Source: Rhodoferax sp. (GTDB lineage Bacteria; Pseudomonadota; Gammaproteobacteria; Burkholderiales; Burkholderiaceae_C). From it: DNA of 64,000 bases. The notes beneath the pieces were generated by a model that saw only the letters and a program-made list of their open reading frames with translations, was not told where the DNA came from and made no database searches. A program made the translations under genes and the position numbers. This document shows positions 6,111-24,154 of this stretch, piece by piece. Position 1 is the first letter of the stretch, and each line of letters begins with the position of its first letter. The stretch spans positions 55,569 through 119,568 of the forward strand of contig JARLJH010000036.1 of assembly GCA_031291305.1 (NCBI GenBank), in the 5' to 3' direction.

Positions 6111-6535
6111 ACCGAGCCTGTGTGGTTGCAGTGGACGGCTCCGAGTCTTCACTGCGCGCGGTGGATTACGCCATTGCCGATGCAGCCAGCCGCCAGCAGA
6201 GCCCGCACATCTATTTGGTCAACGTGCAACCCGCGCTATCGTCCAACGTAACCCGCTTCATCGACGCCAAAACGGTGGAAGATTTTCACCGCGAGACCGG
6301 TGACGAGGCCTTGGCCGACGCCCTGGCCCATGTGGAGGCAGCAGGCCTGTCGCACTCAGCGCATGTGCTGGTCGGCGAGGCGGCGCCAAGTCTGGTCGAT
6401 TTTGCCCAGGCCAAAAACTGCGACCTGATCATCATGGGGACGCACGGGTTGGGCAGCGTGCTGGGAATGGTGATGGGCTCGGTGGCCACCAAGGTGCTGC
6501 ACCTGTCCACGCTGCCGGTGCTGCTGGTCAAGTGA
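6107..6535 (+). CDS. universal stress protein, UspA family
   Basis: This 142-residue single-domain Usp protein starts NRACVVAVDGSESSLRAV. Its C-terminal ATP-binding signature GTHGLGSVLGMVMGSVATKV fits the G-2x-G-9x-G(S/T) pattern of nucleotide-binding members. It overlaps the terC stop by four bases and has an AAGGAG ribosome site inside the terC end. The role is probably in stress or starvation survival. The coupling with TerC suggests the two act under one condition, but the sequence does not say which. Confidence 0.9.
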   Translation: MNRACVVAVDGSESSLRAVDYAIADAASRQQSPHIYLVNVQPALSSNVTRFIDAKTVEDFHRETGDEALADALAHVEAAGLSHSAHVLVGEAAPSLVDFAQAKNCDLIIMGTHGLGSVLGMVMGSVATKVLHLSTLPVLLVK

Positions 6536-6544
6536 TCAGGCACT

Positions 6545-6606
6545 CATTTGCTATTAACTCGGAAGCTACATGCCCATTATTTATAAGGGTTATGGGCTAT
6601 TCTTCT
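6545..6606 (+). repeat. dispersed double-hairpin repeat, copy 4
   Basis: It has TTTGCTATTAACTC, GAAGCTACATGCCC, ATAAGGGTTATGGGC blocks. This is a diverged copy between the convergent UspA and methyltransferase genes. It overlaps the TAG stop of the latter at 6605-6607. Confidence 0.6.
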
Positions 6607-7354
6607 ATAAACCTGCGGTCGTCTTGAAAGGCGCCCGATAGAGCCAGACGGGCCGCCCATCGGGCGCTTGCAGACGGACTTGTGGCTGCCACTGGGTGGC
6701 CTCAAACTCCAGACTCACCAACCACGCACCGGGTTGAAGCTCGGCAGCGGCCTTGGCGACCGCGCGCGGCATGCTCTCGGGTCGCTGAAACAGATAAACC
6801 AAATCGTAGGGTGACCAATCAGCCCGCCAGATGTCGCCCTGACGCACCCGTGCCCAGGGGCAGCGTAGCGCGCACAGACCACGCAGCGGCCAGCTCCATT
6901 CCAAGCCGTGCAGCCGAGCTGCCGGGTAGGCGCCACGCAGCGCCTTGAGGCCATCGCCCAAACCACAACCAGCATCCAAAATGAGAGCATCTTGCCCAAG
7001 TGGAGCTTGGGCGGGAAGGTCTTTTAACGCATGAATCGGGGTGGGAAACAGCGGCGCGTCCCGCCAGGTGTTGGGCGGGTAGATGAGCAGCAGCAAGACC
7101 AGCGGCAGCAGCCAAGCCCAGGCAGGTAAGGTTACGCTACCCGAAACGGCCAGCAGCAGCGGAAAGCCCAGCGCCATCATCAACCGGCGCCACCAGGTGG
7201 CCCCCAGCAGGCTGGCGGCCACACCGAGCGCACAGGCGCTGCCGGTGGCCAATAGCGGCCCTGCCCCCAGGCGCAACAGGCCGCCAAACAGTCCCCAGGC
7301 CGCCAGCCACACCAGCACGGCAGGCAGCGGCCACAGCCGCATCAGCGTCATCAT
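6605..7354 (-). CDS. membrane-associated SAM-dependent methyltransferase, class I
   Basis: This 249-residue protein (start ATG 7354; ATG 7351 is equally possible) has two parts. The N-terminal ~100 residues are strongly hydrophobic (about three or four membrane helices, Leu/Trp/Ala-rich). The C-terminal domain has the SAM-binding motif LILDAGCGLGDGL and a later DIW..WSPYDLVYLFQRPESM block typical of motif IV. The substrate is unknown; membrane tethering suggests a membrane or envelope substrate. A longer reading frame continues upstream to 7525 but enters a repeat-rich region and lacks family-like residues, so I chose the shorter start. Confidence 0.75.
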   Translation of the reverse strand: MMTLMRLWPLPAVLVWLAAWGLFGGLLRLGAGPLLATGSACALGVAASLLGATWWRRLMMALGFPLLLAVSGSVTLPAWAWLLPLVLLLLIYPPNTWRDAPLFPTPIHALKDLPAQAPLGQDALILDAGCGLGDGLKALRGAYPAARLHGLEWSWPLRGLCALRCPWARVRQGDIWRADWSPYDLVYLFQRPESMPRAVAKAAAELQPGAWLVSLEFEATQWQPQVRLQAPDGRPVWLYRAPFKTTAGL

Positions 7355-7524
7355 GACTCGCGCCGATCTGGTGCTACCAGGCTGACCCAAACGAGACAGG
7401 GTTCTGGCGGAGACAGGCGGACACCAGCACCAGCGGCCGCGATTGAACTCATGCTGTGGCGTGTCGGTTGTATTTTCAAAACCGAGGTCAGTGGAGGATA
7501 TGCCAGCTTTGGTGATGGGCCACA

Positions 7525-7588
7525 CCCGGCAAGGCGGGGGGCCTCATACGCGCTGCGCTTTGCGAAATCGGCCCCCCGCCTTGCCCGG
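7525..7588. repeat. long hairpin 1 of pair I (19-bp stem, 26-nt loop)
   Basis: Arms 7525-7543 and 7570-7588 match at 18 of 19 positions. An outer GGCCA/TGGCC pairing at 7518-7522 and 7591-7595 extends the stem past a small internal loop. The 26-nt loop 7544-7569 begins TCATACGCGC and ends GCGAAATC. No T-tract follows, which argues against a simple terminator. Confidence 0.85.
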
Positions 7589-7680
7589 TATGGCCTGAGG
7601 CGGTGTTGGTGCATGAGCCTGACAAAACCAGGTATCTGGGAAATCGGCAATTCAGGTGTCGGCGAACCCGAACTCTCGCC

Positions 7681-7760
7681 GCCGGGGTTGGGGCATGGGG
7701 GTGCGCCGATTTCGCAAAGCGAAGCGCGTATGAGGCGCACCCCCATGCCCCAACCCCGGC
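7681..7760. repeat. long hairpin 2 of pair I (27-bp perfect stem, 26-nt loop)
   Basis: Arms 7681-7707 and 7734-7760 are perfect reverse complements over 27 bases. The loop 7708-7733 is the reverse complement of the loop of hairpin 1 at 25 of 26 positions, while the stems differ apart from the inner GCC/GGC. The loop contains GCGAAGC (7719-7725), known as an unusually stable DNA mini-hairpin. The rest of the 474-base gap 7355-7828 shows no gene. Confidence 0.88.
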
Positions 7761-7828
7761 CACTCCAAACGTCAGAGATCAAAGTTCCCATTGAATCAAC
7801 GCACGCAAAAAACCCCGAAAGATTGAAG

Positions 7829-8809
7829 TCAGATTTTTTGCAGCTTCTCAATCAAGCCATTGAGTTCATCGAGCGACCCAAACGCGATGCTGAGTTCACC
7901 CATTTCTTCCATACGCCCGGCCCGTTTGACGCGCTTTTTGACGCGCACTTCGACCTCGGCCATGAGCAAATCGGACAGCTCTTCTTCCACCCGCTTCATG
8001 TCGCGCGACTTCTCTTTTTTGGGTTTGGTGGCCACCAGCGAGAACTCGGCGCTGAGTTTTTTGACCAGACCCTCGGCCTCACGCACCGACATCTTCTTGG
8101 CACTGATCTGACTGGCGGCGGTGATCTGCATGGCCTTGTCCAAGCTCAACAACGCGCGCGCATGGCCCATCTCCACGTCACCGGCCATCAGCATGGTCTG
8201 CACCGGCTCAGCCAGATTCAGCAGGCGCAGCAGGTTGCTGGCGGCGCTGCGACTGCGCCCAACCGCCTGGGCAGCAGTCTCGTGCGTCAGGCCAAATTCT
8301 TTGATCAGGCGCTGCAGACCCTGCGCTTCTTCCAGCGGGTTGAGGTCTTCGCGCTGCATGTTCTCGATCAGCGCCATGGCGGCGGCGGCCTCGTTGGGCA
8401 CGTCACGCACCAGCACCGGCACGCTGTCCAGCCCGGCGAGCTTGGCCGCACGAAAGCGACGCTCGCCAGCAATGATCTCGTACACCGGACGCCCGGCACC
8501 GCCCTGCATGTCGGGCGAGGTCTGGCTGCGCTTGAGGTCAGCGTCCGCATCGCTGAGGCGGCGCACCAGGATCGGCTGCATGATGCCTTGCGCCTTGATG
8601 GATTCGGCCAGCTCGTAAAGCGCGCCCTCGTCCATGCGGGTACGCGGCTGGTATTGACCGGGCACCATATCGCTAAGCAACAACGTCGATGGCTGGCCGC
8701 TGTTGGCCACCGCGGTCGAGCTGCCATCCAGTGAAAACGCCTCATCCACGGTAGGGCCCAATAAGGCTTCGAGCCCGCGACCCAGGCCCTTTAATTTTTT
8801 AGTGACCAT
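7829..8809 (-). CDS. parB: chromosome partitioning protein ParB
   Basis: ParB binds parS, loads as a CTP-dependent DNA clamp and spreads around the origin region; with ParA it segregates origins. The 326-residue protein has the basic KGLGRGLEALL N-terminus, the CTP-binding motif GERRFR (115-120), a helix-turn-helix at about 170-195 and a C-terminal dimerisation region. A charged insert of about 20 residues (87-106, DADADLKRSQTSPD..) precedes the GERRFR motif. Four parS-like sites lie 1.4 to 3.7 kb to the right. A hydrolase gene separates it from parA, which is unusual. Confidence 0.95.
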   Translation of the reverse strand: MVTKKLKGLGRGLEALLGPTVDEAFSLDGSSTAVANSGQPSTLLLSDMVPGQYQPRTRMDEGALYELAESIKAQGIMQPILVRRLSDADADLKRSQTSPDMQGGAGRPVYEIIAGERRFRAAKLAGLDSVPVLVRDVPNEAAAAMALIENMQREDLNPLEEAQGLQRLIKEFGLTHETAAQAVGRSRSAASNLLRLLNLAEPVQTMLMAGDVEMGHARALLSLDKAMQITAASQISAKKMSVREAEGLVKKLSAEFSLVATKPKKEKSRDMKRVEEELSDLLMAEVEVRVKKRVKRAGRMEEMGELSIAFGSLDELNGLIEKLQKI

Positions 8810-8821
8810 GCGAGTCCCTTT

Positions 8822-9361
8822 TTAAATTTGAATCAGTTTCTGTAGCAAAGCTTGCCCGGCGGGCCAGTCGCCCAGGCCGGAATCGGCATTGATGTGGCCC
8901 CGCGCACCGGCGTTCACCAGTTCCGAGCCCCAAGCCTTGGCAAAACCGGCGGCGCGCTCATACGTGCAATACGGGTCATCGGTGCTAGCCACCAAGATGC
9001 TGGGAAACGGCAAAGGCTTCAACACCAGTGGCGACCAGCTGCCCAGCACTGGCCGCAATTCCTCCCGCTCGGCGTCACCCGGTGCCACCAGTAAGGCGGC
9101 CTTGACACGACCGGTGTTCTGGGAGTGTGCGGCCCAGGCGGCCACCAATTGACAACCCAGGCTGTGCGCCACCAGCACGGCAGGTTGGTCGAGCGACAGC
9201 AGCACATCTTCCAGGCGACCCATCCAGTCGCCGCGCAGCGGGCGCATCCAGTCGTGCTGCTCAACGCGCTGGTAACCCGACTGCGCCTGCCACAGGCTTT
9301 GCCAATGCAAGGGACCGGAGTTTTGCCAGCCCGGCAAGATCAGGATGTGATCAGACTTCAT
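8822..9361 (-). CDS. alpha/beta hydrolase, RBBP9/YdeN family
   Basis: This 179-residue serine hydrolase of the small RBBP9/YdeN type begins ILILPGWQNSGPLHWQSLW, the usual family opening. It has the nucleophile elbow AHSLGC, the acid in ASTDDPYC and a late GH..ADSGLGDWPAG histidine block, giving a complete Ser-Asp-His triad. The physiological substrate is unknown. It lies between parA and parB in the same orientation, 12 bases from parB, so it is probably co-transcribed with the partition genes. It would be a passenger unless it has an unrecognised link to segregation. Confidence 0.85.
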   Translation of the reverse strand: MKSDHILILPGWQNSGPLHWQSLWQAQSGYQRVEQHDWMRPLRGDWMGRLEDVLLSLDQPAVLVAHSLGCQLVAAWAAHSQNTGRVKAALLVAPGDAEREELRPVLGSWSPLVLKPLPFPSILVASTDDPYCTYERAAGFAKAWGSELVNAGARGHINADSGLGDWPAGQALLQKLIQI

Positions 9362-10981: not shown

Positions 10982-11067
10982 GTGAGTGTGGGTTGGACAC
11001 CGCCGTTCGTGTCCCCCCGCCTGCGGCCTCCTCCTTGACCTCACTTTGGTGCCCAACCCACACTCAC
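10982..11067. repeat. long hairpin A of pair II (20-bp stem, 46-nt loop)
   Basis: Arms 10982-11001 and 11048-11067 pair at 19 of 20 positions (one A-C mismatch). The loop 11002-11047 contains a 36-nt core at 11006-11041 beginning TTCGTGTCC and ending CTTGACCT. Confidence 0.82.
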
Positions 11068-11115: not shown

Positions 11116-11203
11116 GAATCAGTCGGGCGATGCACTTTGCGCAGGTCAAGAAGGACACCACAGGCCGGGGGACACGAAACAAAGCGCATCGCCTGACTGA
11201 TTC
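11116..11203. repeat. long hairpin B of pair II (24-bp stem, 40-nt loop)
   Basis: Arms 11116-11139 and 11180-11203 pair at 22 of 24 positions, plus one G-T wobble. The loop core 11143-11178 is the reverse complement of the hairpin A core at 31 of 36 positions, while the stems are unrelated. The 345-base gap 10890-11234 shows no gene besides the two hairpins. Confidence 0.82.
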
Positions 11204-24091: not shown

Positions 24092-24120
24092 GCATCTTTC
24101 TCTGAAGTCAACTTAAAAAA

Positions 24121-24154
24121 CGCATCGGGGTTGCACCCCGATGCGTTTTTTTTT
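24121..24154 (+). terminator. intrinsic terminator of the ccm operon
   Basis: A perfect 10-bp stem (CGCATCGGGG / CCCCGATGCG) with a 5-nt loop is followed by nine T residues, 29 bases after the ccmI stop. Confidence 0.95.

Follow-up and report, generated by a model that had tools for sequence, protein, structure and literature searches.

A dispersed two-hairpin element of Rhodoferax and other Comamonadaceae with apparent selection for single-strand folding

Background

Integron attC sites combine variable sequence and a variable apical part with a conserved single-strand structure, and their box pair is GTTRRRY / RYYYAAC. Correia is a bacterial MITE. ERIC, NEMIS and Nezha are also named as bacterial MITEs in a passage of PMC3733652. 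For REPs, strand-specific recognition of the single strand is described in part of PMC6006769. In TIRtrons (TIRYT), according to the relevant passages of PMC3733652, RAYT-like genes lie between long terminal repeats that are not REPs; some of these repeats are self-complementary, they also occur as dimers, and their motif is GGGGWSAS.

Here we describe an element found in a stretch of 64,000 nucleotides from Rhodoferax sp. (contig JARLJH010000036.1, positions 55,569 to 119,568; below, the window). Judged by its sequence, it belongs to a dispersed element that has further copies in Rhodoferax and elsewhere in the Comamonadaceae. We are highly confident that this is a dispersed two-hairpin element whose folding is selected on a single strand. 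In the literature, mainly its open-access part, we found no description of this paired-hairpin element. Large hairpins in pairs of types A and B, whose non-canonical internal loop is conserved while the helices flanking it evolve freely, were not found in print.

The copy in the window

The original prediction, made from the letters of the window, was of two long hairpins with mutually complementary 26-nt loops, and when one loop is reverse-complemented the two do agree at all but one of the 26 positions. Hairpin A (7518..7595), whose GAT...TGA strand is the minus strand, has 26-nt arms (7518-7543 and 7570-7595) that are complementary at 92%; its presence had been predicted correctly, but its arms are longer than had been thought. 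They enclose a 26-nt core (7544..7569, minus) of the form GAT-T-apical hairpin-A-TGA. Hairpin B (7681..7760), with its GAT...TGA strand on the plus strand, has a perfect 27-bp stem (arms 7681-7707 and 7734-7760) around its own 26-nt core (7708..7733, plus). The R1 model matches them at 7515-7597 (minus, 89.1 bits) and 7680-7762 (plus, 100.4 bits). Between them lies an 85-nt spacer (7596..7680, no strand assigned) whose hairpin-B side is moderately conserved among copies. Outside hairpin A is a conserved tail (7470..7517, minus; consensus of 36 type-A copies) that is probably part of the element, and outside hairpin B a short one (7761..7775, plus; consensus of 45 type-B copies), both with approximate limits. 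The terminal inverted repeats of the element have 59-nt arms, 85% complementary and 104 nt apart.

A 29-nt core pattern, with up to three mismatches allowed, occurs twice in the whole window and in none of 100 dinucleotide shuffles; together with the copies in many assemblies, this rules out chance palindromes or an assembly artefact. Folded as DNA, both strands of the two hairpins give -33.7 to -45.4 kcal/mol (z -6.6 to -10.6). A scan of the whole window (loop of at most 45 nt) found five long hairpins, A and B included. Elsewhere in the window, 24115-24151 holds a hairpin that resembles an intrinsic terminator, with a perfect 17-bp stem and A/T tails. The lack of a T-tract, noted earlier, agrees with a simple consensus scan of 7300-7900, in which no terminator-like or promoter-like site was found, and with no T run following the hairpins we rejected an intrinsic terminator. 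All 13 Rfam matches in 6500-8900 lie below gathering scores, and the nine that overlap the hairpins are microRNA models.

The element is 68 nt from the parB gene (7829..8809, minus), the 3' end of which points toward it. On the other side is an open frame (6605..7525, minus) with a methyltransferase-domain match below the Pfam cut-off. Its true start is probably near 7340-7356 and not inside the element, since homology to relatives begins there. A frame antisense to parB (7451-8734) runs over the element; we presume it to be spurious, as we do the frames of at least 100 aa that cross the element in 12 of the 41 loci of our gene-context survey. The parB loci of 29 relatives were compared with the element by BLAST, and only that of G072 (L210) matched. 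Of 14 intergenic stretches that were read, L210 had hairpin A together with a decayed B; in the remaining 13 no hairpin was seen by eye. Empty sites in relatives, with which a comparison had been suggested, thus do exist.

There is a second two-hairpin element of the same layout in the window, at 10982-11067 and 11116-11203, between LysE-like and rsmG genes. We call it family II. Its core is unrelated to that of the first element (family I) and consists of AGGTCAAGGAGGA ... GGGGGACACGA around a variable apical hairpin; it contains GGGGACAC, which fits the TIRtron motif. The window copy has no Rfam match, and BLAST relatives (E <= 0.01) are present in 70 of 89 genus genomes.

Distribution of copies

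The window genome contains two further core-1 units, one single decayed hairpin and one more unit with a different core (L314). About 16 of its places match R1 at E <= 2e-4, two of which (L310, L315) were not confirmed by a hairpin scan, whereas REPs usually number more than 100 per genome (stated in a passage of PMC2817692). In the genus, the exact 17-nt core is found in 21 of 89 genomes. With one mismatch allowed there are 141 matches in 49 genomes, part of which are due to chance because a reversed control also gave 16 matches (15 genomes). Some core matches (L100, L109, L110, L113, L114) have no stems and lie in coding-looking sequence. A scan by genome name gave 40 stretches, from Rhodoferax and from MAGs labelled just Comamonadaceae, Burkholderiales or Betaproteobacteria.

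At E <= 0.01, R1 matches occur in 49 of 399 family genomes, representing 24 of 141 genera; we read 40 of these loci. An order-level sample of 399 genomes, which overlaps the family sample, added a candidate match in one genome outside the family. The element was absent from viral contigs searched with the exact pattern and from plasmids and phages searched with blastn.

Stems and cores

Both arms are of stem type A (TCAGGCCATGTGGG...) or B (GCAGCGGGTGGGG...) in 82 of 93 core-1 hairpins; the remaining 11 have hybrid, decayed or other stems (e.g. L063, L106). Since these types are inherited among copies, the stems belong to the element. This count does not support the suggestion that a core was inserted twice, each time with inverted duplication of unrelated flanks. 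The claim that the stems are unrelated holds between the two hairpins of one element (mean 5'-arm identity 45%, range 30-88%, 47 elements) but not between copies. A search with the core had also been suggested, to see whether each hit is bounded by unrelated perfect inverted repeats. The 40 stretches and the window contain 57 exact 29-nt cores, 51 of which do have long arms, but their stems are mostly of the two types; the six cores without long arms (L117, L123, L134, L144, L148, L150) belong to hybrid, truncated or flipped copies.

Among the 64 loci that we read, 31 have two cores, divergent in 29. One A and one B hairpin make up 28 of the 31, and three have one untyped hairpin. In a larger set of 47 two-hairpin elements, 43 are divergent, three convergent and one has both cores in the same direction. 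The normal arrangement is one A and one B hairpin with the cores outward. Two family-I pairs in genomes of genus g88 (L281, L287), unlike most, are convergent with 16-29 nt between the hairpins.

The "loop" is itself structured: GAT-X and Y-TGA form an internal loop that closes an apical hairpin, and the latter varies among elements. Presumably the GAT and TGA strands could form tandem G-A, A-G and T-T pairs. The same internal loop recurs in other genera, where it joins unrelated long stems to unrelated apical hairpins.

When 69 chosen hairpins are aligned, 95.4% of stem cells are paired, a value raised by the omission of 13 of the 82 typed hairpins (near-duplicates, poorly paired or rearranged). 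All 82 in a fixed register are 90.9% paired, with L011, L056, L079, L082, L112 and L141 below 70%. Compensatory change is found in 25 of 27 long-stem pairs and double changes in 26 of 31 pairs of the alignment, counts that the existence of two stem types inflates; orthologous copies are not independent. At most one of 500 shuffles paired as highly. Sliding the partner columns by one to three positions left 35.7-45.1% paired, a control that favours any structure derived from the very sequences tested. The X-Y pair is GC in 37 of the 69 hairpins, UA in 24, gapped in eight and broken in none.

Which strand folds

On the GAT...TGA strand, the stems of 92 core-1 hairpins, scored symmetrically, contain 149 G-T and 29 A-C mismatches. 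For other cores the ratio is 134:20 (63 hairpins, with one loose-fitting hairpin, 5:1, set aside), which is somewhat favoured because these relatives were found with an RNA model that prefers G-U on the modelled strand. The core-1 ratio, from loci found mainly via the core sequence, and that of the unrelated family II (56:14, 27 hairpins), found via BLAST, are less affected by search bias. Split by type, the ratio is 56:5 for A and 68:14 for B, 13 untyped and three low-scoring hairpins being left out; when the 82 typed hairpins are counted in a fixed register, with no realignment, the ratio is 148:53.

Hairpin A is in folding orientation on one strand of an element and hairpin B on the opposite one. 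Given this arrangement, a mutation bias tied to the replication strand cannot yield both asymmetries. We read the excess of G-T over A-C as pointing to selection for folding of a single strand, be it DNA or RNA.

Matching of the two cores

The cores of one element are at most two edits apart in 42 of 47 two-hairpin elements. The same is true of 51 of 90 comparisons between different elements of the same genome, because core 1 dominates. A comparison by core type takes account of the genome: among 28 elements in eight genomes, 24 are concordant where 13.5 are expected, and permutation of partners within genomes reached this concordance 0 times in 20,000 trials (P < 1/20000). Without G002, 18 of 22 are concordant (P 0.00045). 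The rule has exceptions. The cores are not strictly of one type in 12 of the 47 elements and more than two edits apart in five; by reading, L064, L263, L276 and L278 have clearly different cores, L328 differs at three positions, and L094 and L095 have mixed X-Y subtypes. On balance, we consider it likely that the matching of cores is a real constraint.

It had been suggested that the loops could kiss, and they may: the cores of an element mostly match even where the core is a different one. Of 27 core-1 elements, 25 have the same X-Y pair in both hairpins, but the variable base N of the loop is shared in just 18, which means that the loops are not strictly held to full complementarity with each other. 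Selection of hairpins A and B on opposite strands also makes simple kissing within one transcript a poor fit.

Orthologous sites

The most instructive place is upstream of a gene starting ATGACAACACAAGCC... (the L090 locus), where the state of the element differs among relatives. No element is present in L390-L394 and L401, and L389 has just a neighbouring repeat. A full A+B pair with core 1 occupies the site in L065, L075, L089, L090, L091 and L094 (L016 and L039 coincide with L065 and L091 in the genome), and a full pair with core 2 in both hairpins in L398 and, with two core differences, L405. One hairpin is found in L309, L319, L403 and L102, and a hybrid in which a single core lies between the outer arm of B and the outer arm of A in L107/L408 and partly in L069. 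Others are remnants, L407 is a different insertion, and L396 and L402 were left without a state. In L407 (G013:C66) the place of the hairpin element appears by eye to be taken by an antitoxin-toxin gene pair, and in L085 (G035:C33) hairpin A of family I is followed across the spacer by a hairpin that by eye resembles family II and takes the place of B.

The spacer of L398 matches (E < 0.01, among the loci fetched) the L090 locus alone, L065 and L091 included, in pieces of 28-43 nt with 77-89% identity, and this makes the elements homologous though their cores differ. By sequence, then, L090-locus elements share stems and spacer by descent, yet both cores differ jointly between lineages. The flank of G002 resembles those of G004 and G072, and the entire region may thus have passed between species; even so, the two lineages differ jointly in their cores.

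In general, an orthologous site may have a copy or lack one, and copies decay to single hairpins. The junctions of element-free sites are too diverged for a target-site duplication to be read. The limits of the element are approximate. At three orthologous sites the element is in opposite orientation. In-place inversion was set aside as the explanation: the cores differ in X-Y subtype at two of the sites, and replacement or re-insertion is as likely. Hairpin A of L082 (G035:C1:37300-38250) has near-perfect arms, but its core is inverted with respect to the stem, as template switching in a quasi-palindrome would be expected to leave it.

Position relative to genes

Gene pairs could be classified at 30 of 41 loci (11 were unclear): 17 have the same direction, 12 are convergent and one is divergent. 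A facing stop codon lies within 87 nt in 26 of 29 measured copies. These counts come from a simple frame caller, with which a second reading disagrees for a few loci (such as L132 and L137). At the 14 same-direction loci with both hairpins, compared by hand, the hairpin on the mRNA strand has the higher model score in six and the lower in eight.

Comparison with known systems

Like REPINs and BIMEs, the element has two inverted hairpins between genes, with imperfect stems and an internal bulge. It differs from them in hairpins of about 80 nt with stems of 24-27 bp, and in two stem types that share one core. The tetranucleotide GT[AG]G, 0-2 nt 5' of the hairpin foot, is found on the folded strand in 0 of 75 core-1 and 0 of 62 other hairpins; on the other strand it occurs in 15 of 75 (7.5 when shuffled) and 6 of 62 (4.1 when shuffled). 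A Y1 domain is encoded in 79 of 89 genus genomes, yet G343 and G145 have element pairs and no Y1 match. At 65 loci with Y1 transposase-domain genes (IS200-type and RAYT-like, a few genes being counted twice) there was no R1 hairpin beside the gene, nor the family-II core by a strict pattern. The repeats that flank a resident Y1/RAYT-like gene are different from the hairpins of the element; many RAYT-like genes here are flanked by a AATTGGGGTCAGATTCCAATT repeat instead. Of the features that mark REPs and REPINs, we see the inverted orientation, not the guide tetranucleotide or the flanking of RAYT genes. For these reasons we class the element as REPIN-like in layout and not as a REPIN.

The AATTGGGGTCAGATTCCAATT repeat matches the GGGGWSAS repeats of TIRtrons (passages of PMC3733652). 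A frame was called at 36 of the 65 Y1 loci, and GGGGWSAS is on both sides in 15 of the 36. The motif is missing from the family-I core. Its presence in the RAYT-flanking repeat and in the family-II core is a lead only. Often TTAATTGGGGTCAGATTCCAATTAAT and a GGGGACAC repeat adjoin the Rhodoferax Y1 transposase-like gene (L185 and other RAYT-like loci), and TTAATTGGGGTCAGATTCCAATTAAT also adjoins family-I elements at the L090 locus.

With MITEs the element shares a length of 100-400 bp, a non-coding nature, proximity to genes, terminal inverted repeats and the lack of a transposase of its own; it differs in that each terminal repeat is a covarying hairpin with strand-specific folding. The search for an autonomous copy found no transposase by eye among the frames of L274, L276, L277 and L278, four of six widely spaced loci; L277 has one Phd-like antitoxin by eye. 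Like attC, the element combines variable sequence and a variable apical part with a conserved single-strand structure. Membership was rejected because the hairpin flanks carry no attC-type box pair: GTTRRRY is in the 5' flank of 0 of 75 core-1 and 0 of 62 other hairpins, and RYYYAAC in the 3' flank of 0 of 75 and 2 of 62.

Possible functions

Several suggestions can be made regarding what the element does. The one we favour, tentatively and with somewhat less than even confidence, proceeds by analogy with REPINs: this would be a non-autonomous, dispersed intergenic element with two long-hairpin ends that act single-stranded. The folded hairpins would be the recognition ends in single-strand DNA mobility or recombination, and both ends may be accepted jointly because their cores match. 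No transposition was observed, which counts against this proposal. Mobilization by a RAYT (TnpAREP), as a true member of the REP/REPIN family, is a separate proposal. Inverted hairpin dimers with an internal loop near gene ends speak for it, as does the wide occurrence of the Y1 domain in the genus. We nevertheless find it very improbable, given that GT[AG]G is missing from every folded-strand foot, that none of the 65 Y1 loci has an R1 hairpin, and that many RAYT-like genes have the AATTGGGGTCAGATTCCAATT repeat, as in TIRtrons (part of PMC3733652).

The same hairpins might work in RNA. If transcribed in 3'-untranslated regions, they could stabilize, process or terminate the neighbouring mRNAs, and a divergent pair would offer either transcribed strand one correctly oriented hairpin. 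The closeness to facing stop codons and the preponderance of same-direction and convergent gene pairs fit this, covariation with tolerance of G-U is the expected outcome of RNA selection, and REPs too are described, in part of PMC3733652, as mostly 3' of coding regions and plausibly transcribed. However, sense and antisense hairpins are equally intact at the same-direction loci, so that a cis role in mRNA is not favoured, and the element has opposite orientations at three orthologous sites. The window copy has neither T-tract nor promoter-like site, and Rfam yields nothing at gathering score for 12 related loci, nor anything near that score for the window region. An RNA function is unlikely on this evidence, while still worth serious consideration. 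A mutational by-product is another candidate: template switching in quasi-palindromes perfects arms, flips cores and copies the core from one hairpin to the other. The flipped core of L082, the cores of L065 in the same direction and the near-identity of most cores within elements are what it would leave behind. Yet correction alone gives no excess of G-T over A-C on one defined strand, the A and B stems stay distinct while the cores stay alike, and genera that differ in both flanking helices still have the internal loop and its X-Y pair. The strand asymmetry of the independent family II also argues against it as the sole cause, which we consider quite improbable.

Returning to single-strand DNA mobility, a more speculative idea is that the apical core serves as an address code, in which the ends are paired through base pairing or identity of their cores. 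We regard it as doubtful. If true, any core would work when both ends have it, and cores could be swapped as modules, perhaps between families, a candidate example being the apparent family-II hairpin of L085. The ends of a mobile element would then be recognized by matching each other, not through a fixed sequence read by a protein.

Whatever the function of the element is, the wobble-pair asymmetry between strands provides a cheap sequence test for the working strand of any palindromic repeat. The joint difference of cores at the L090 locus makes it testable how the ends of a non-autonomous element stay matched without a linked enzyme.
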